Shown here: positions 2,457-12,223 of the stretch, piece by piece
Position numbering within the stretch: the first letter of the stretch is position 1
Layout of the letters: each line of letters opens with the position of its first letter
Virus record (IMG/VR): IMGVR_UViG_3300009620_000037
Location: 1-27,383 of that record
Length of the DNA: 27,383 nt
Reading direction: 5' to 3' (one strand)
From: a virus
Made by a program: the position numbers and the translations under genes
The notes under the pieces: model-generated
Seen by the model: only the letters and a program-made list of their open reading frames with translations
The model's database searches: none
What the model was told of the DNA's origin: nothing

Positions 2457-3018
2457 CGCAGCCCCGCAGGTGATCGACGAGCGCCCGCACTTCGGCGACG
2501 TCGAGCGTCAAACTGTAGGCCGCCTTGACGCGCAGCCAGCGGCGACCGTAGTGGCACCCGTCGACCGTCGGCCACCAGGTCGCCGGATCGCGGTCGCCCT
2601 TCGAGCGGTTGACCGAGGCCGAGGTGAGATCAAGGTTGAGCCGGTCGAGCGCGAAGCCGCGCCGCATCACCGTCGGCCAGGCGCTCGCGCCGGAGCGGTG
2701 CGCCTCGGCCAGCGGCACGATGTGGTCGACGTCTATCTGCCCGGCGTCGGTGAGCGGTGCGCCCGTGTACGGGTCGACCCACGCGCCGCCGACGACACGG
2801 CAGTCGCGCGTCGTGGCAAACGTCACCGGCTCGGCGCTCGCGGCGATCAACAACTCGGCGCGCAGGTTTTGACAGTCGCGATCCGTGTCCGGCCAGCCCA
2901 CGAAGTAGTCGGCCCGGTCGTAGCCGGTCGGCTCAGGCGCGAACATGCGCACCCCACCGACGACGACGAGCGCCGACACCGCCGCGCCGATCGCCGGGCG
3001 CAACGCGTTCCCCGTCAT
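2449..3018 (-). CDS. Membrane-anchored or secreted HNH nuclease (GmrSD C-terminal-like)
   Basis: A 189-residue protein with an N-terminal hydrophobic segment (residues about 9-26), preceded by one Arg, that could be a signal anchor or signal peptide. The catalytic part resembles the DUF1524/GmrSD C-terminal HNH group: DVDHIVPL at 96-103, Asn128, then SVNRSKGDRDP around 135-145 and Trp-Trp-Pro. Cysteines at 49, 73, 155 and 187 could form disulphides outside the membrane. Extracytoplasmic HNH proteins of this type are common in GC-rich bacteria. In a phage early operon it may degrade extracellular or incoming DNA. It starts four bases inside the methyltransferase stop (ATGA). Confidence 0.82.
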   Translation of the reverse strand: MTGNALRPAIGAAVSALVVVGGVRMFAPEPTGYDRADYFVGWPDTDRDCQNLRAELLIAASAEPVTFATTRDCRVVGGAWVDPYTGAPLTDAGQIDVDHIVPLAEAHRSGASAWPTVMRRGFALDRLNLDLTSASVNRSKGDRDPATWWPTVDGCHYGRRWLRVKAAYSLTLDVAEVRALVDHLRGCDG

Positions 3019-4010
3019 GCGAACAGTCGCCCCAGGATCGACTCGCGTGCCATGCGGCTATAGTCGGGGTTCAACTCGATCCCGACAAACTCGCGCCCCA
3101 GTTTCAGCGCCACACAGCCCACGGTGCCAGACCCCGCGAACGGATCGAGGATCAGATCGCCAGACTTGCTTCCGGCCTTGATGCACGGCTCGACCAGTGC
3201 GGTCGGGAACGTCGCAAAGTGGGCTTCCCTGTAGGGCTTGTGCCGCTCAAAATGCGGATTGATCGTCCAGACGGATCTGAGGTTGCGGCCACTAGCTGCC
3301 GCACTCCCCCGGCGATCTATCTCATGATAGGACGCAACTCCGTTGACCGTTCCCTTGATCCTCCCTTTCCCCATCATATTTCCTCCGCTGGTTGACCAAT
3401 CGCGGCCAGCGCCAACCTCCCGCACCGCGTCGGCGTCGTAGAAATACCGCGCAGACTTGGTGAGCAGAAACACATATTCGTGGCTCTTCGTCGGGCGGTC
3501 GGTCACACTCTCCGGCATCACCGATCCGCTGTAGGCAGGGCAGAACGAGACGCCCTTCGCCCAGACAATGTCTGATCGCAGATACCAGCCGTCGGCTTGC
3601 AGGGCGAACGCCACGCGCCACGGGATACCGACGAGATCCTTGGGTTTCAAGTTTCCCACTACGGTGGAACGTGTCCGATGCTGGTTGGCGCGTTGTGCGT
3701 TGCGTCCTAGGTTCGTGAGGCCACGGGAAAGTGCCTCCGGATTACCTTTAGGCGACGAGGCATAACTATCACCAAGATTGAGCCACGCCGTGCCATCGTC
3801 CCGCAGCACGCGCCGCACCTCGCGGAACACCGCCACCAGTGTCTCGACGTAGGCGTCCGGCGTCGGTTCTAATCCGATCTGCCCATCCACGCCGTAATCT
3901 CTCAGGCCGTAATACGGCGGCGAGGTCACCACGCACTGCACCGATTCGGCGTCCAGGGTCGGCAGCACCGTGCGAACGTCGCCATCGTGGATGATTGGTC
4001 CGTTTGGCAT
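3015..4010 (-). CDS. N4-cytosine / N6-adenine DNA methyltransferase
   Basis: A 331-residue member of the N4/N6 MTase family (N6_N4_Mtase). The catalytic motif TSPPYY is at residues 29-34 and the AdoMet-binding DPFAGSG at 289-295, near the C-terminus. This catalytic-first order is typical of the beta class. It transfers a methyl group from S-adenosylmethionine to an exocyclic amine in DNA. The target sequence cannot be read from the protein; the central variable region (about 95-240) would set it. The ATG at 4010 overlaps the TGA of the small upstream gene (TGATG); a GTG at 4028 is a weaker alternative. No restriction enzyme is adjacent, so it probably protects phage DNA. Confidence 0.92.
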   Translation of the reverse strand: MPNGPIIHDGDVRTVLPTLDAESVQCVVTSPPYYGLRDYGVDGQIGLEPTPDAYVETLVAVFREVRRVLRDDGTAWLNLGDSYASSPKGNPEALSRGLTNLGRNAQRANQHRTRSTVVGNLKPKDLVGIPWRVAFALQADGWYLRSDIVWAKGVSFCPAYSGSVMPESVTDRPTKSHEYVFLLTKSARYFYDADAVREVGAGRDWSTSGGNMMGKGRIKGTVNGVASYHEIDRRGSAAASGRNLRSVWTINPHFERHKPYREAHFATFPTALVEPCIKAGSKSGDLILDPFAGSGTVGCVALKLGREFVGIELNPDYSRMARESILGRLFA

Positions 4011-4186
4011 CACATACCGCCCGGCCACGGTCGACGCCTGGCGCGCGCGAGCGTTGCATTCGTGACGCGCATTTCAAGCCGCGCCCGTTCCTCGATCGGC
4101 AACCGCGCGCGCCACCGATACCAGATCCACAACGCGCGCACGTGTCCGAGAACCGCCGACACCGGCCAGACTTCAAGCACCATCAT
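4010..4186 (-). CDS. Small basic protein between two methyltransferases
   Basis: A 58-residue frame with two consecutive ATG codons. The first, at 4186, overlaps the cytosine methyltransferase stop (ATGA), and its own TGA overlaps the next ATG (TGATG). The N-terminal 25 residues are hydrophobic and Trp-rich (WPVSAVLGHVRALWIWYRW) and the rest is Arg-rich. It could be a short membrane-associated peptide. Perfect coupling on both sides is the main support for it being translated. Confidence 0.6.
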   Translation of the reverse strand: MMVLEVWPVSAVLGHVRALWIWYRWRARLPIEERARLEMRVTNATLARARRRPWPGGM

Positions 4187-5217
4187 TTATCCCCGCTGAG
4201 TTGTTCAAGGCACAACCGGATCGCATGTTCTGCTTGGGCGGGCACAACGCCGTTGCCGAGTGCTCGGAGGCGATGCGTGCGATCGACCAGCCCCTCGGCC
4301 AGCCCATCAGCCACTCGACGAACGTGGCCGACAGTCGACGCTGCATCGAGTGCGGGCGCGAGTCCTGCATCGTCGCCGATGATCGATGCCCACTTCCGCG
4401 CGTCGCCTGGTCCCGGCGGCCACTCGGTCGGGAACGCGGCACCAGCGCCACGTTGACAACTCCCGGCAGACGACTTTTCGCTGCTCGTTTTTCCCAGTTC
4501 ATATTCTCGCCCGTATCCTTCCAATCGCTGGTGGTCGGCGTCGGCCACGCCGATGCCATCGCGTGGAAAGCCTCGGCCTGTCCTTCGAGATTCAGAAACG
4601 GTCTGGTCTTGTCCCCGTTGGAATAGCTGTACGCTCTGGTCGCCACTTTGGGCGTCTGCCATGCCTGTGTGTGAAGTGGGCGAGGCGCGTCGGAATTGTT
4701 TGGCGTATCCCAGGATAAAGACGCGCTCTCGCTGGTGCGGCGCACCAACATCCGATGCACGGACGAGCGTTTCCGCAACGCGGTAACCCAGTCGCTCCAA
4801 CTCGTTTCGGACCACCATGTAGGCCGGTCGCCCGTCCCGTTGTCGAGTTGAAATAAGAGTCCCGACGTTCTCCAAAAAGACGAGATCCGGTCGCGCCCCG
4901 TTGATAACCCGCCGCACATGCGGCCAGAGATGCCGGCTGTCGTCGTCGGCCTGTCGCTTCCCTGCTTGGCTGAAGGGTTGACACGGGAATCCCGCAGAGA
5001 CGCAATCCACCGATCCACGCCAGCGTCGGCCGTCGAAGGTCGTAACGTCGTCCCAGATAGGAGCTGGTGCCAGCCGCCCTTCCTCCATGCGCGCCGCCAG
5101 GACGGCGGCCGGATAGGCTTCCCGCTCGACGTAACAGACGGCGCGGTACTCTCGAAACACGCGCCCGATTCCGATTTCGAGGCCGCCAGCCCCGGCACAT
5201 AGAGCCAAGCCATACAC
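4183..5217 (-). CDS. C5-cytosine DNA methyltransferase
   Basis: A 344-residue Dcm-type enzyme. Motif I CAGAGGLEIG is at residues 7-16, motif IV GFPCQPFS at 76-83 with catalytic Cys79, motif VI ENV at 116-118, motif VIII QRERVFILG at 162-170, and motif X RALGNGVVP near the C-terminus. It methylates carbon 5 of cytosine in DNA with S-adenosylmethionine. The start is the GTG at 5217, directly after the upstream TAG, because the first residues already enter motif I. The target-recognition region lies between motifs VIII and X (about 175-300). Adjacent to a second methyltransferase and without a visible restriction enzyme, it looks like an orphan phage methylase. Confidence 0.93.
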   Translation of the reverse strand: MYGLALCAGAGGLEIGIGRVFREYRAVCYVEREAYPAAVLAARMEEGRLAPAPIWDDVTTFDGRRWRGSVDCVSAGFPCQPFSQAGKRQADDDSRHLWPHVRRVINGARPDLVFLENVGTLISTRQRDGRPAYMVVRNELERLGYRVAETLVRASDVGAPHQRERVFILGYAKQFRRASPTSHTGMADAQSGDQSVQLFQRGQDQTVSESRRTGRGFPRDGIGVADADHQRLEGYGREYELGKTSSEKSSAGSCQRGAGAAFPTEWPPGPGDARKWASIIGDDAGLAPALDAASTVGHVRRVADGLAEGLVDRTHRLRALGNGVVPAQAEHAIRLCLEQLSGDK

Positions 5218-5526
5218 CTACATGTCCCCCTCGTTGCGTGCGTACCACTCGCGCACGTGGATCGCGAGCGTGTCTGCTGGTCGCCCGGTGCCCGTCGTGC
5301 ACTGGTCGCAACCCTTGCAGACGCCATGCGAAATGTTCCAGGCATGCGTCCAGGCGCGCGCCTTCGAGGCAATATACGGATTCGCCCACCGTGCGACGCC
5401 GCGCTGCTCTGCCTGTCGCGCGTGCCGCATCGTGTCGCGGACGTGTTCGTTGCCCATGCGTCGCAGCACGGCAGAGCGCCGATCGGGGGCGACGTAGGCG
5501 CGGCGCGGGTTGTTGACCCCTGGCAC
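5218..5526 (-). CDS. Small protein with CxxC zinc motif
   Basis: A 102-residue protein starting at GTG 5526, one base after the upstream stop. The first 45 residues are Arg-rich and helical. Residues 69-76 hold CKGCDQC, likely a zinc knuckle, followed by a C-terminal helix (ADTLAIHVREWYARNE). Function not recognised. Its position between a resolvase-like nuclease and a DNA methyltransferase suggests a nucleic-acid role. Confidence 0.65.
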   Translation of the reverse strand: MPGVNNPRRAYVAPDRRSAVLRRMGNEHVRDTMRHARQAEQRGVARWANPYIASKARAWTHAWNISHGVCKGCDQCTTGTGRPADTLAIHVREWYARNEGDM

Positions 5527-5527
5527 A

Positions 5528-5848
5528 TCATTCCTCGTCGCCGCCCGGCGGCTCGCCGTGCAGGTCGATCCAGTCCGACCAGCGCACCACGACCAGCGCG
5601 TCGCGTCGTGGTCGCCGGGGGCGGTTTAACACCAGCACGCCGATCTGGTGGCGGCGTTCCGACACACGCCGAATCCCGTCGAGCCAGTCGAATAGATATT
5701 TCGGGATCACCTTCCGCACTTTGAGCTGATACCCGAACAGCCCCGACGTGAAGTCCGCGCCGTCGCGTTCGCCCGTCACCGGAATCCGTTGCGTGCCGAG
5801 ATCGCGGGCGTGCGCCCGTTCGGCGGCTTTCCAGCTCGCGTTCGTCAT
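5528..5848 (-). CDS. Hjc/PD-(D/E)XK-like resolvase or nuclease
   Basis: A 106-residue protein. The layout Glu10, Asp32 (GAD) and Gln41-x-Lys43 (YQLKVRK) matches the compact PD-(D/E)XK core of archaeal-type and phage Holliday junction resolvases. It is followed by a hydrophobic strand GVLVLN and a second strand DALVVV. Such enzymes cut branched DNA formed during recombination or before packaging. Gln in place of the usual second acidic residue occurs in some members of this superfamily. The ATG at 5848 overlaps the upstream TGA (ATGA). The family call is from motif spacing only. Confidence 0.72.
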   Translation of the reverse strand: MTNASWKAAERAHARDLGTQRIPVTGERDGADFTSGLFGYQLKVRKVIPKYLFDWLDGIRRVSERRHQIGVLVLNRPRRPRRDALVVVRWSDWIDLHGEPPGGDEE

Positions 5849-6462
5849 CGCCGCCCCCGCGATTGCGCGTTGCTGGTTTGTCGAATGGCCGCCCGTGCCC
5901 GGCGGGCCGCGATCGTCTCGTTCGTGTCGACACAGGCGCACCGCTCGACGTAGTCGTGCTCGTAGTCGCTGCCGAGTGGCGCGCAGGCAAACCGACCGCA
6001 GCGCGTGGCCGCCGTGCACATGCGCGGACGCCAGCCGGAGTCGTCGCACACGTCGCACGTCGGCGGCACCGGGATCGCAATGCGCCCGGCCTCGATGGTA
6101 TCGGCGAGCTTCGCCCACCCGCGCGCCCGGAGCTGCGCGACGCAGGCGGCTTTCGCGAGCTGCACGCGGGCCACCTGGCCGGGCGTCGCGTTCGGCACTT
6201 GCGCGACCAGGGGCGCGGGCGGCGCGTGCTTCGAGGCGACCGCCTCGGCAGCGAGCGCCCACTCGGAGACGGTCGGCATATACCGCCCGGTGCGTTGCAA
6301 CTGCGCGGCGGCGTCGACAATCGCCGCGACCGGCAGATCGGCCAGCGCCTCGTAGTAGATCTGTCGCTGGTCGGCTCCGCCGTCACGCGAGGCGGGCACG
6401 CGAAACGCGAGCGCCAGGCCGTCGTAGGCGTGCGCGAACGCCGGGGCATCGGTCGTCGTCAC
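5845..6462 (-). CDS. Replication-associated zinc-binding protein (loader-like)
   Basis: A 205-residue protein. It starts at the GTG at 6462, four bases into the upstream stop (GTGA). The N-terminal half is helical, with a segment near residues 35-75 (YYEALADLPVAAIVDAA, later MPTVSEWALAAEAV) of the kind found in phage helicase-loader or replisome-organiser proteins. The C-terminal part has CDVC, then Cys residues including RCGRFAC and ERCAC, a DnaJ-like cysteine-rich zinc region. I infer a role in replication initiation from composition and from its neighbours; no enzyme motif is present. Confidence 0.62.
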   Translation of the reverse strand: MTTTDAPAFAHAYDGLALAFRVPASRDGGADQRQIYYEALADLPVAAIVDAAAQLQRTGRYMPTVSEWALAAEAVASKHAPPAPLVAQVPNATPGQVARVQLAKAACVAQLRARGWAKLADTIEAGRIAIPVPPTCDVCDDSGWRPRMCTAATRCGRFACAPLGSDYEHDYVERCACVDTNETIAARRARAAIRQTSNAQSRGRR

Positions 6463-7260: not shown

Positions 7261-8031
7261 TCAGAACACGATCTCTTGTCGCCACTTCCAGAGCCGCAGG
7301 ATCGCGTCGCACGCGGGCCATAATTCCTCAAGGCTCGGCACCGCCGCGACTTCCACATCGGGATCGCCGACGACCTTCGGCAACCGGATCACGACGGCCC
7401 CATCGACCGCCCCGTGCCCCATCTCGGCGAGCGCGACCTGATAGAACGCCGACTGTAGAAACGCTTCCTCGCGATAGATCCGCTTGCCGGTTTTGAAGTC
7501 GATCAGGAGTCGCTGCCCGGCCACGGTCGCGACCAGATCGAGCGTGCCCGCGTACTGGTGCGTGGTCGAGTACACGACCTGCTCGACCAGTTCGGGTTTG
7601 ATCGTGTCGCCTGCCCAGTCCTCGAAGCGACTGACGGCCCAGCGCGCGGGATCGCTCACGTCCGGCTCAGGGCCGAGCGTCTGCCCGAGTCTGATCCGCA
7701 GCCGGTGTTCGATCAGCCCGTGCGCCTCGCTGCCGATGTTGCCCGCGCTCTTGAGCTGCTGCGTGTGCGCCTTCGGGCCGAGTTGCTTCGACAGCGTGCT
7801 CGCGAACTTGGTGCCGGTGATCGTGCTCTGGTGCGCGCGCAGCCCGTCGTAGAGCTGCCCGGCGACCTCGACCACGTAGTCGCGCTCGACCTTTGCCGCC
7901 CACGGCACGAGCGCCGGTTTGCTGAGTAACCCGAGCATCGTCGTCACGCCGACATAAAACTCGTTCTCGATCTCGTACTGCCGCCCGGCCTTTGTCTGCC
8001 GACGGTTTGCGGTTGTAACGGTCGGCGTCAT
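7261..8031 (-). CDS. RecB/Cas4-like PD-(D/E)XK exonuclease
   Basis: A 256-residue nuclease of the PDDEXK_1 group. GSEAH with His104 is at residues 100-104, GTLDL at 162-166 (Asp165), DFKTGK at 178-183 (Asp178, Lys180), and the Q-x-x-x-Y element LQSAFYQ at 192-198. These are the motifs of RecB-family nuclease domains, in which two metals cut DNA ends. In phages such an exonuclease resects double-strand ends for recombination or packaging-linked replication. Its partner is probably the DUF669-like protein two genes upstream. The ATG at 8031 overlaps the previous stop (ATGA). Confidence 0.9.
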   Translation of the reverse strand: MTPTVTTANRRQTKAGRQYEIENEFYVGVTTMLGLLSKPALVPWAAKVERDYVVEVAGQLYDGLRAHQSTITGTKFASTLSKQLGPKAHTQQLKSAGNIGSEAHGLIEHRLRIRLGQTLGPEPDVSDPARWAVSRFEDWAGDTIKPELVEQVVYSTTHQYAGTLDLVATVAGQRLLIDFKTGKRIYREEAFLQSAFYQVALAEMGHGAVDGAVVIRLPKVVGDPDVEVAAVPSLEELWPACDAILRLWKWRQEIVF

Positions 8032-8240
8032 GCCTGCGCCTCGGTGACTAAATTGAGATCGCCGCGCCGGAGCAGGATCGTGTCGACGCAGCCCTCGGTC
8101 GGGCACGACCCGATCGCGGTGACGTAGCCGACGGGTCGCCAGGTCTGCGAACGCCCGATGCCCTCTAGCTCTGTGCCCGCCTTGACCGTGAGCGGCTCGC
8201 CGCAGGTGACACAGTGCGACGGCTGGTAGGCGGTCGGCAT
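8028..8240 (-). CDS. Small zinc-ribbon protein
   Basis: A 70-residue protein with CVTC at residues 10-13 and CPTEGC about 30 residues later, a complete C4 zinc ribbon. The ATG at 8240 overlaps the previous TAA (TAATG) and the stop overlaps the exonuclease start. Being locked between a DUF669-like protein and the exonuclease, it may assist recombination, but no function is recognisable. Confidence 0.7.
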   Translation of the reverse strand: MPTAYQPSHCVTCGEPLTVKAGTELEGIGRSQTWRPVGYVTAIGSCPTEGCVDTILLRRGDLNLVTEAQA

Positions 8241-8680
8241 TAGAACGGCACCGCGTCGACAGGCGGCGTGATGTCTGGCGGCGGTGTCGTGGTCGGCGCA
8301 CCTGGCGGGAACACGCCCTCGACGTTCGCCCACACGTCGCCGTCGGTCTTGATCGCGTGCTTGATCTCTACTTGGCACGTTTTGCCCACGAGCTGCATGA
8401 GGTCGATCCCGTCGCGTTCTTCCTCGGGCGAGACGGGCACGCCGCGCCAGGAGTCGAGCGTCTTGCGGAGCATTGCCCGCGCGTGTAGCGATCGCGTGTA
8501 GCGGCGGCGCACGACGAACAACCGCTCGCCGCCGTTCAACTGCCACGAGATCGAGATCATTGCCTTGGTGCCGTAGGCCGTCTCGACCTGGCCGAGATCT
8601 TCGACGTCCAGGCAGACGGCCTCGTGCCGTCCCTCGGGCGCGCGTTCACTAGTGGACACGTTCACTACTAACCTCGTCAT
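8240..8680 (-). CDS. DUF669-like ssDNA-binding protein
   Basis: A 146-residue protein. Its order of elements matches a phage family often annotated as DUF669 or single-stranded-DNA binding: RAPEGRHEAVCLDVEDLG, a central strand ISISWQL, RRYTRSLHARAMLRKTLDSW, then the strand VGKTCQVEIKH and an acidic Pro-rich tail ending in Phe. The Asp/Pro-rich tail ending in a hydrophobic residue recalls the protein-recruiting tail of SSBs. GGAGG lies eight bases before ATG 8680, a strong ribosome site supporting this start despite a 32-base overlap with the upstream gene. It likely works with the nearby exonuclease. Confidence 0.78.
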   Translation of the reverse strand: MTRLVVNVSTSERAPEGRHEAVCLDVEDLGQVETAYGTKAMISISWQLNGGERLFVVRRRYTRSLHARAMLRKTLDSWRGVPVSPEEERDGIDLMQLVGKTCQVEIKHAIKTDGDVWANVEGVFPPGAPTTTPPPDITPPVDAVPF

Positions 8681-9505: not shown

Positions 9506-9514
9506 AGCCCGCCT

Positions 9515-9820
9515 ATGCCGATCCACCTCGACGACATTCGCTGGCACGTCGGCCACGTACTGCGACGACTGCGGCAAGCGCACCAGCTCAGCCAGTCCGC
9601 CCTGGCCGAGGCGTCAGGCGTCGCGCAGTCGAAGATCCAGCGACTCGAAGATCGTGGCGTCGGCACCCTGGACACCGTGACGGCGTTGGCCGAGGTACTC
9701 GGCACGACCATCGGCGAAGCGACAAGTTACGCCGAGCGATTGAACGGTGCCACAGCGGGCGACCAGAACGCAGTCGATACGTTGGCCGCTCTTATTCGGA
9801 AGGAAACCGGATCGCGGTAA
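9515..9820 (+). CDS. XRE-family repressor
   Basis: A 101-residue protein and the only convincing plus-strand gene. Residues 10-68 form an HTH_3/XRE domain: VLRRLRQAHQLSQSALAEAS, then GVAQSKIQRLEDRG as turn and recognition helix, then TLDTVTALAEVLG. The C-terminal 30 residues are a short helix, with no LexA-like self-cleavage domain, so induction would not follow the classic RecA route. Its place, divergent from the early operon and next to the attachment region, fits the lysogeny repressor. It is convergent with the late operon. Confidence 0.85.
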   Translation: MPIHLDDIRWHVGHVLRRLRQAHQLSQSALAEASGVAQSKIQRLEDRGVGTLDTVTALAEVLGTTIGEATSYAERLNGATAGDQNAVDTLAALIRKETGSR

Positions 9821-9856
9821 ACATGCGGCAGCGGCGGGTGCACGGCGGGCCGTGAT

Positions 9857-9879
9857 CGGTATGCCAATAGTATGCCCAG
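9857..9879 (+). repeat. 23-bp direct repeat, left copy (arm-type site)
   Basis: The 23 bases at 9857-9879 are identical to 10100-10122 and contain GTATGCC twice (9859-9865 and 9870-9876). A third GTATGCC follows at 9881-9887. The 11-bp spacing is about one helical turn, as expected for arm-binding sites of a tyrosine integrase on one face of the DNA. Confidence 0.7.
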
Positions 9880-9900
9880 AGTATGCCAAAAACGGTCAAA

Positions 9901-9940
9901 CCAGTGACATCCAGCGACATCCAGTGACACCGAATGACAT
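9901..9940 (+). repeat. Four tandem 10-bp units
   Basis: The units are CCAGTGACAT, CCAGCGACAT, CCAGTGACAC and CGAATGACAT. Helical phasing at 10 bp suggests cooperative protein binding, for example excisionase or further integrase arm sites. A diverged continuation (CGAGCGGATC) follows. Confidence 0.65.
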
Positions 9941-9960
9941 CGAGCGGATCGCACGCTGCC

Positions 9961-10000
9961 CCAACGAAAATGGGATCGAACCAATGAAAATGGGTGGTGG
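9961..10000 (+). repeat. Two 20-bp units next to the tRNA fragment
   Basis: CCAACGAAAATGGG at 9961-9974 recurs as CCAATGAAAATGGG at 9981-9994, one base different, at a spacing of 20 bp. The second copy abuts the 3' end of the tRNA fragment. It may be a host-factor or integrase site flanking the core. Confidence 0.55.
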
Positions 10001-10044
10001 ACCGCATGGGGCTCGAACCCACGACCTCCGCGTTGCGAACGCGG
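9995..10044 (-). other. 3' half of tRNA-Ala(CGC), presumed attP core
   Basis: Read on the minus strand: anticodon stem CCGCG (10044-10040), loop TTCGCAA with anticodon CGC, stem CGCGG, variable loop AGGTC, T-stem GTGGG, T-loop TTCGAGC, T-stem CCCAT, acceptor strand GCGGTCC, discriminator A and an encoded CCA ending at 9995. U70 and A73 agree with alanine tRNA identity. The D-arm and the 5' acceptor strand are absent upstream, where the sequence reads GGTATACGCG. A tRNA 3' half inside a phage is the standard attP core that restores the host tRNA gene on integration. Confidence 0.8.
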
Positions 10045-10099
10045 CGCGTATACCAAAACAAGCCCCGGAAACACTGACGAAAACCGACCCCCCTGCGGA

Positions 10100-10122
10100 C
10101 GGTATGCCAATAGTATGCCCAG
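10100..10122 (+). repeat. 23-bp direct repeat, right copy (arm-type site)
   Basis: Identical to 9857-9879, with GTATGCC at 10102-10108 and 10113-10119. It lies on the other side of the tRNA fragment, so the two copies bracket the core as P and P' arms would. A related GTATACCAAAA is at 10048-10058, directly beside the core. Confidence 0.7.
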
Positions 10123-10811: not shown

Positions 10812-11112
10812 AGAACTGCTGCACCTCATCATCGGTTAGGAACTTGCGTAGCTGCGTCGTCGTGCGTCGGATCGATCGCTCGGATCTTTCAGGATACACC
10901 CGGTGTAGCAGCTCGTGGAGGATGGTGTCGACGGTCGCGGGCACCGGGTTAATCACCACGGCATCGCCGTCGATGCAGACGCCGTGCACCGTCTCGCCGG
11001 GTGCCGTCAGATACGCCTCGACGATCGGCGCTGCGCCCAGCTCGGCCCACAGTCGGAGCCAGAGCGCGCGCCGCCTGGCGTCATCGCTGCCAGGGTGCGC
11101 CGTCTTCGACAT
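10756..11112 (-). CDS. HExxH zinc-peptidase-like protein
   Basis: A 118-residue protein. Residues 66-70 read HELLH, preceded by a hydrophobic helix start (VDTIL) and by a beta hairpin (TVHGVCIDGDAVVINP), as in small minimal metallopeptidase folds. The helix after it is basic. No clear third zinc ligand is visible; Glu76 or a later Glu are candidates. Similar HExxH proteins occur in phages with unproven activity. It starts at ATG 11112, 32 bases inside the phosphoesterase gene, with no good ribosome site; a TTG one codon upstream is the alternative. Confidence 0.7.
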   Translation of the reverse strand: MSKTAHPGSDDARRRALWLRLWAELGAAPIVEAYLTAPGETVHGVCIDGDAVVINPVPATVDTILHELLHRVYPERSERSIRRTTTQLRKFLTDDEVQQFYAEYCRRRKKGRSRRADV

Positions 11113-12223
11113 CAAACCAGTGCAGCTTGACCGAGTTGAGATCCGTCCGCCCGTCGACCTGCTCGAAGGTCACATACCCGCGCCGCTGCGGTCGGCCGCC
11201 GATCTTGGCCTGCGTCATATACCCGGCCGTCTTACACAGGCACCCGCACTCGACGAGCATCGACGACGCGCGCCACGGCAGCACGGCAAGCGTGTGCGTG
11301 TGGCCCATCACCAGCAACCGGATCGCGTCGAGGCCGAGGGCGTCCGAATTATCGGCGAGCCATTCCTCGAACGCTCGGAGCGCCGCGCCGGGCGTGCGGC
11401 TGTATTTCTCAGGATGCGCCAGGACAGCATCGCCGACGACGGTGAGCCAGTCGATCGCGTGCGTCGTGCCCGGCACCGGGTGCGAGGCGACGCTGACGTT
11501 CTCGAACCGCCGGGCGAGTGCGGTGATCGGGCAGAGCGTGCCACTCGGCGTCATCGCGGTAATCGCGTCGACCATGTCGGGCGTCAGTTGCGCGGCGAGC
11601 GCCTTCCGCAATCTGGCGTCGTGATTGCCGACGATGATCCGCACGGCGGGCAGCAACTCCGAGAACGTCTCCAGGATCAAGGTGACAGCGGCCCACTCGT
11701 CGGCATACGGCACCCGCTCGTGTTTGCTGAATCGCGACAACGAATAGCAGTCGCCCACGTCGCCGATCAGCACGGCGAGATCGGTGCGCTTCGACTCGCG
11801 CGCCAGCATGGCCGCCAACATCTCAGGCTCATGGAACGGCACGTGAAGATCCGGCACGACCAGAACGCGCGTCCGCCCGTCAGGCGTGCGCGCCTTCGCT
11901 GCGCCGCGATACCGATCGCGCGCCTGGTGGATGCACTCTTGCCAGCGTGCCCACGCTTCGTCATAAGTGCGGAGCGGTTGCCGCAGGTACGCGTCGGCCT
12001 CGTCGTGCTGCGCTTTGGCCTCGCTGCGCTGATACAGCCTGGAGCATTTAAAACAGCGCGTCGCGCGCTTCGAGCACGGTCCGCCGCAGTCAATGCACGG
12101 CGCATTCGGCAACGCCCGACTCGGCACGCCGCGACGGGTGTAGTAGCACTGGATGCACCTGGTCGCCGTCGCCACCGACAGCGGGCGTTCCTTGCAGACC
12201 GGGCAGATCCTCGGCTTAGTCAT
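11081..12223 (-). CDS. Metallophosphoesterase with N-terminal zinc ribbons
   Basis: A 380-residue protein. Four CxxC pairs at 7-10, 23-26, 43-46 and 57-60 make two zinc ribbons. A helical linker leads to a calcineurin-like phosphoesterase: DLH 125-127, GDVGD 154-158, GNHD 199-202, His270 and GHTH 307-310, a full two-metal site. Such enzymes hydrolyse phosphodiesters or phosphomonoesters; the substrate (nucleotide, RNA, DNA end) is unknown. The ribbons suggest nucleic-acid binding. It starts eight bases inside the lysozyme 3' end, so it is translated with the lysis genes, an odd place for a DNA enzyme. Confidence 0.9.
   Translation of the reverse strand: MTKPRICPVCKERPLSVATATRCIQCYYTRRGVPSRALPNAPCIDCGGPCSKRATRCFKCSRLYQRSEAKAQHDEADAYLRQPLRTYDEAWARWQECIHQARDRYRGAAKARTPDGRTRVLVVPDLHVPFHEPEMLAAMLARESKRTDLAVLIGDVGDCYSLSRFSKHERVPYADEWAAVTLILETFSELLPAVRIIVGNHDARLRKALAAQLTPDMVDAITAMTPSGTLCPITALARRFENVSVASHPVPGTTHAIDWLTVVGDAVLAHPEKYSRTPGAALRAFEEWLADNSDALGLDAIRLLVMGHTHTLAVLPWRASSMLVECGCLCKTAGYMTQAKIGGRPQRRGYVTFEQVDGRTDLNSVKLHWFDVEDGAPWQR

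Follow-up and report, generated by a model that had tools for sequence, protein, structure and literature searches.

What is half of a bacterial tRNA gene doing between two clusters of phased repeats in a phage genome? The window, by which we mean the whole stretch of DNA analysed, comprises 27,383 bp and is a linear record of IMG/VR. An earlier note on this DNA had read positions 9857 to 10122 as an attP through which the phage integrates into a host tRNA-Ala(CGC) gene and restores it. Our analysis supports this reading through the match of the core and through relatives of the phage integrase, with integration itself predicted from sequence comparison. None of the three outcomes by which the note would have seen its reading refuted was obtained. 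Very probably, a temperate tailed phage of Vicinamibacterales bacteria with a ~35-kb genome has its attP here.

Genes for head, connector, tail and tape-measure functions lie to the right of the site, and exonuclease, methyltransferase and regulator genes lie to the left. The two adjacent methyltransferase-like genes on the left encode an N6/N4 DNA methylase (3015-4028) and a 758-aa protein matching PHROG 1008 (4173-6449). Gene annotation and domain and family searches found no recombinase in the window. The features used below are as follows.

7261..8301, minus strand: phage exonuclease of the early region, left of attP (PHROG 298, E=1.6e-32; PDDEXK_1).
9515..9820, plus strand: Cro/CI-type HTH regulator directly left of attP (Pfam HTH_31, E=1.8e-11).
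9857..9890, plus strand: left (P) arm, three candidate GTATGCC arm-type sites with 11-bp phasing (similar phasing beside integrase relatives, in GTGTGCCCA, TGTGCCCA or TGTGACCA).
9901..9940, plus strand: four GACAT/GACAC units repeated with 10-bp phasing, lying between P arm and core (nearly identical in sister contig G003).
9995..10047, minus strand: attP core, an exact 53-nt copy of tRNA-Ala(CGC) positions 24-76, the 3' half to CCA (exact match to complete genes in L003, L004 and L005).
10033..10039, minus strand: putative 7-bp overlap (crossover), the anticodon loop TTCGCAA, reading TTGCGAA on the plus strand (placed from sequence, within tRNA positions 24-41, and by analogy with anticodon-loop integrases, PMC8371274).
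10040..10099, plus strand: phage side of the core (C') and spacer to the P' arm (similar in G003 by alignment).
10100..10122, plus strand: right (P') arm, two candidate GTATGCC arm-type sites at 10102 and 10113 (kept in G003).
11081..12223, minus strand: metallophosphoesterase on the late-gene side of attP (PF00149; PHROG 221).
L034:9056-10198 of contig G004, equivalent to window ~30553-31695 and thus off the window, plus strand: gene of the integrase P0003.

The tRNA core and its phased arms

The earlier note had described a tRNA-Ala(CGC) 3' half over 9995-10044. The 3' half was confirmed and its extent proved slightly longer, the identity covering 53 nt (9995-10047) and starting two bases inside the 3' strand of the D-stem. 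The note had also looked to bacteria for a tRNA-Ala(CGC) gene sharing this core. When the 53-mer was used to scan the genome collection, exactly three matches were obtained, all 53 nt lying in each case inside a complete tRNA-Ala(CGC) gene; the three carriers are all Acidobacteriota, and Vicinamibacterales appears in two of the genome titles. The matched host gene reads GGGCCGC...CGCCGCGTTCGCAACGCGG...GCGGTCCACCA. The bases from which alanine identity had been proposed, U70 and A73, are both present in the phage fragment, and the host partner carries G3, so that the G3:U70 pair, which the host gene has, would also form in the joined molecule. No full-length tRNA had been expected at the site. 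ARAGORN found no complete tRNA in the window, nor a whole tRNA on the phage contigs examined, and the Rfam tRNA model gave 23.2 bits against a cut-off of 29 bits, with the D-arm missing. Joining the halves of host L003 and the phage in silico gave one complete tRNA-Ala(CGC) and one dead end, a result already expected from the sequence identity and only confirmatory.

The repeats described in the earlier note were recovered as well. The 23-bp direct repeat flanking the tRNA half is exact (9857-9879 and 10100-10122), and GTATGCC occurs five times at 11-bp spacing in two clusters, three copies on the left (9859, 9870, 9881) and two on the right (10102, 10113), with no other plus-strand copy in 27,383 bp. 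The arm sequence of the window is GTATGCCCA/GTATGCCAA. Repeats of 23-mers within 400 bp were seen in none of 20 second-order Markov simulations, compared to the one real case. For GTATGCC itself, 0.89 copies per window were expected and 5 observed, with a simulated maximum of 7. Since the raw count is not unique, what distinguishes the site is that the copies are phased at 11 bp and grouped into two clusters with 0.25 kb between them. The GACAT array at 9901-9940, between the P arm and the core, is absent from the earlier note and may provide candidate sites for an excisionase (Xis) or an accessory factor.

The pattern (GTATGCC N4)x3 also matched four contigs of other phages. In the unrelated phage G170 (L066:2011-2241), four and two copies of GTATGC with 11-bp spacing stand directly after an integrase gene; in the other three non-sister contigs no link to an attP was found. 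When viral contigs were queried with the exonuclease, the arm pattern and the tRNA 5' half for more attP relatives, the same group alone came back, and L013, a distant relative found via the metallophosphoesterase, had no recognisable core.

Phages can carry tRNAs, and the fragment has lost its D-arm and 5' acceptor strand, so it could be read as a scar, that is, a degraded phage tRNA gene or a captured piece of host DNA with no role in integration. However, a dead tRNA is not expected to keep exact identity, and here 53 nt ending at CCA are still identical to the host gene. The fragment is also centred between phased arms that are kept in a sister phage, and relatives of the phage integrase sit at tRNA-Ala(CGC), as described below. 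We consider the scar very improbable compared to an attP core.

Circular map, integrase and relatives of the integrase

Sister contigs were found by using the metallophosphoesterase gene as query. Three of them (G001, G002 and G004) are 99.9% identical to the window where compared, and G004 runs past the right end of the window through a protease, the portal, the integrase cassette, TerL and TerS. The sister contig G003 is matched at each end by another contig, G168, which closes a circle of ~34.1 kb; the window version of the circle comes to ~35.0 kb, both lengths being calculated from the coordinates of overlapping contigs. Because overlapping contigs close into a circle of ~34-35 kb, the circular or virion form that had been proposed is supported. 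Phage genes next to a tRNA 3' fragment are also found where integration has left a prophage with its displaced end, and the site could accordingly be an attL or attR in a bacterial chromosome. This is hardly credible given that phage genes lie on both sides, that both flanks can be followed on the sister contigs, which join into a circle, and that several contigs have the same two-sided structure. Both this reading and the dead-tRNA reading were rejected.

Reading the site as an attP raises the matter of its recombinase. As the window stops short of the integrase, its gene was taken from the sister contigs G004 and G168. P0003 is a tyrosine integrase of 380 aa (PF00589, E=5e-23; PHROG 1, E=7e-50) with an intact PF00589 domain, the G168 protein being 98% identical, and no other tyrosine integrase was found on the phage contigs. 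An ORF of 62 aa with weak HTH matches precedes P0003 and overlaps its start. Portal and TerL flank the cassette, which runs on the opposite strand; around the circle its distance to attP is ~20.5 kb in one direction and ~13.3 kb in the other. Phage integrases usually adjoin attP, and a separation of 13-20 kb is thus unusual; a literature search found no paper that quantifies such distances. Upstream of the cassette, G168 has a 51-nt imperfect duplication (L038:9141-9191 and 9510-9560) containing a TTGAC-like sequence, possibly a duplicated promoter.

We sought relatives of P0003 in 162 genomes of the order Vicinamibacterales. For 6 of the 10 best relatives (G148, G053, G068, G149, G063 and G037), a complete tRNA-Ala(CGC) lies less than 400 bp away. 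A seventh, G018, adjoins a tRNA-Ala(CGC) 3' half (positions 30-76) with phased GTGTGCCCA on both sides, which is one base away from the GTATGCCCA of the window. With the island of G063 among them, these relatives of the integrase lie at the gene where the earlier note had suggested looking for the ends of related prophages. Proximity to tRNA-Ala(CGC) was found for 6 of the 12 top matches of P0003 versus 1 of the next 38 (Fisher p=0.0004, with the cut at 12 picked after the list was seen). Among the other relatives at this tRNA, pairs spaced 11 bp apart and resembling TGTGACCA or TGTGCCCA follow CCA at a distance of roughly 60-130 nt; for G037 and G149, such a pair is weak or was missed by the automated search. 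P0003 and its relatives at tRNA-Ala(CGC) share only ~30-47% identity, mostly in the C-terminal part, and neither tRNA-Ala(CGC) nor phased arms were found near the integrase of G147, the best match of P0003.

The G063 island contains a restored tRNA and a displaced 3' fragment and is bounded by a 110-bp perfect direct repeat that starts at tRNA position 29. This start places its crossover at or beyond the anticodon stem. The island spans 5.8 kb, its repeat copies lie at L081:85-194 and 5859-5968, and the repeat runs on for 62 bp after the tRNA has ended. An integrase match also lies ~120-140 bp past the 3' end of the exactly matching tRNA in two of its three hosts (at and around L003:5608-5683 and L004:5060-5135), which suggests that integration at tRNA-Ala(CGC) has recurred in Vicinamibacterales.

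The placing of the cassette, distant from attP and on the opposite strand amid portal and TerL, could also mean that P0003 is an independent insertion into the late operon with a different target and that the attP is used by another recombinase of a host or helper. We regard this as quite unlikely. P0003 has no competitor among the tyrosine integrases of the phage contigs, its relatives have the same tRNA as target and arms that resemble those here, and no phased arm-like repeats that might form a second attP were found beside the cassette.

Because the integrase relatives sit at tRNA-Ala(CGC) and the island repeat begins at position 29, we infer that crossover occurs in the anticodon stem-loop and that the phage would restore the 3' half. 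The identity block spans the anticodon loop, and the stem offers candidate inverted-repeat core sites. In the mechanism that we propose, the N-terminal domain of P0003 would bind the 11-bp-phased GTATGCC arms, and the core sites would be the inverted repeat of the anticodon stem (CCGCGTT/AACGCGG). The host tRNA-Ala(CGC) gene would be recombined in its anticodon loop, across a 7-bp overlap, TTCGCAA. As positions 24-76 of the tRNA come with the phage, integration would join the phage 3' half to the promoter and 5' half of the host gene to give a complete tRNA in the lysogen, and would displace the 3' half of the host to the other prophage end. The 162 genomes of the order yielded no integrated copy of the window phage, and attL and attR were hence unseen; TerL relatives of 30-39% identity occur in 5 of the 162.

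A sister phage with the opposite tRNA half

Contig G003 is ~96% identical to the window, collinear on both sides of the site, and shares its arms, GACAT array and P' side; the integrase lineage is conserved at 98% identity. Its core (L035:9040-9200, window ~9940-10100) is an exact copy of tRNA-Ala(CGC) positions 1-41 on the plus strand, whereas the window has 24-76 on the minus strand. Between the GACAT array and the P' side it reads AGGGCAACGC...TATAAT...GGGCCGCTAGCTCAGCTGGGAGAGCGCCGCGTTCGCAACGC. Thus the tRNA cargo on the P side is the 3' half in the window and the 5' half with its own upstream sequence in G003. Positions 24-41, centred near the anticodon, are the only segment common to the two core identities, and the putative 7-bp overlap within it is inverted at just its three central bases, the anticodon (plus strand TTGCGAA in the window versus TTCGCAA in G003). 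A consensus scan found no promoter upstream of the G003 tRNA half despite the TATAAT-like box, and comparison of its upstream DNA to Vicinamibacterales upstream sequences gave no match. An extra ~470 bp with small ORFs separates the HTH gene from the P arm in G003, at the equivalent of window position 9825.

Since the two phages carry opposite halves with 24-41 and the P' side in common, the sequence of G003 predicts integration in the reverse orientation, with G003 supplying both the 5' half of the tRNA and the DNA upstream of it. It seems probable that the sister phages use one anticodon loop in opposite orientations, and that the near-palindromic stem-loop permits a lineage to flip its polarity, a switch predicted from one contig, G003. 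A simple assembly chimera is not expected to place an inverted half precisely in register. Such a flip perhaps began with integration the wrong way round, after which an imprecise excision took host DNA along. As the readable relatives, G063 and G018, are of the 3' type, the 5' type would appear to be derived.

These results predict a host group, Vicinamibacterales, for a phage known only from metagenomes, supply a testable set of attP, attB and integrase, and mark tRNA-Ala(CGC) as a recurrent integration site in the order. A limited literature search found no papers on Vicinamibacterales prophages. The sister phage with the opposite half would allow a direct test of what determines direction, the overlap sequence alone or the arms as well.

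Comparison with known attachment sites

Anticodon-loop attachment sites of tyrosine integrases in tRNA genes were described by Williams (2002), cited here through passages of PMC8371274 and PMC4383910. The window site resembles them in having a tRNA 3' half in attP, an inverted-repeat core that matches the anticodon stem, and predicted 3' restoration, and differs in its host order, Vicinamibacterales, and in an integrase remote from attP. With the 3'-restoring anticodon-loop class it shares the terminal tRNA fragment identical to a host gene, the tRNA restored by in-silico joining, an identity block across the anticodon loop, phased arm-type sites on both sides and an encoded tyrosine integrase; integrase-attP adjacency, which is usual and not obligatory, is absent. 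The Islander collection has 3919 islands, of which 2083 are anticodon-centred, 3760 have a 3' fragment and 159 a 5' tDNA fragment (PMC4383910). Anticodon-centred sites that restore the 3' half are therefore already common, and the window site is of this ordinary kind.

Mycobacteriophage sites such as those of Boilgate (attB-4, tRNA-Lys) and Omega (attB-11, tRNA-Leu) are also close known systems (PMC10865867). In some of the phages there, a whole tRNA encoded by the phage can replace restoration, the core being short and restoring no tRNA, which is termed tRNA-dependent lysogeny (PMC10865867). This does not fit the window phage, whose core would restore the tRNA and for which ARAGORN found no complete tRNA on the phage contigs.

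Restoration of the 5' half is seldom seen in bacteria (PMC8371274). The Thermococcales element pTN3 restores the 5' half of tRNA-Leu, and its integrase gene is split by integration (PMC5495485, PMC8371274). G003 would likewise restore a 5' half from its own upstream sequence, but its integrase gene is not split. A polarity switch between sister phages was not found in our limited literature search. Compared to 5'-restoring elements, the pair described here is set apart in that the window phage and G003 share arms and integrase lineage and yet carry opposite tRNA halves.
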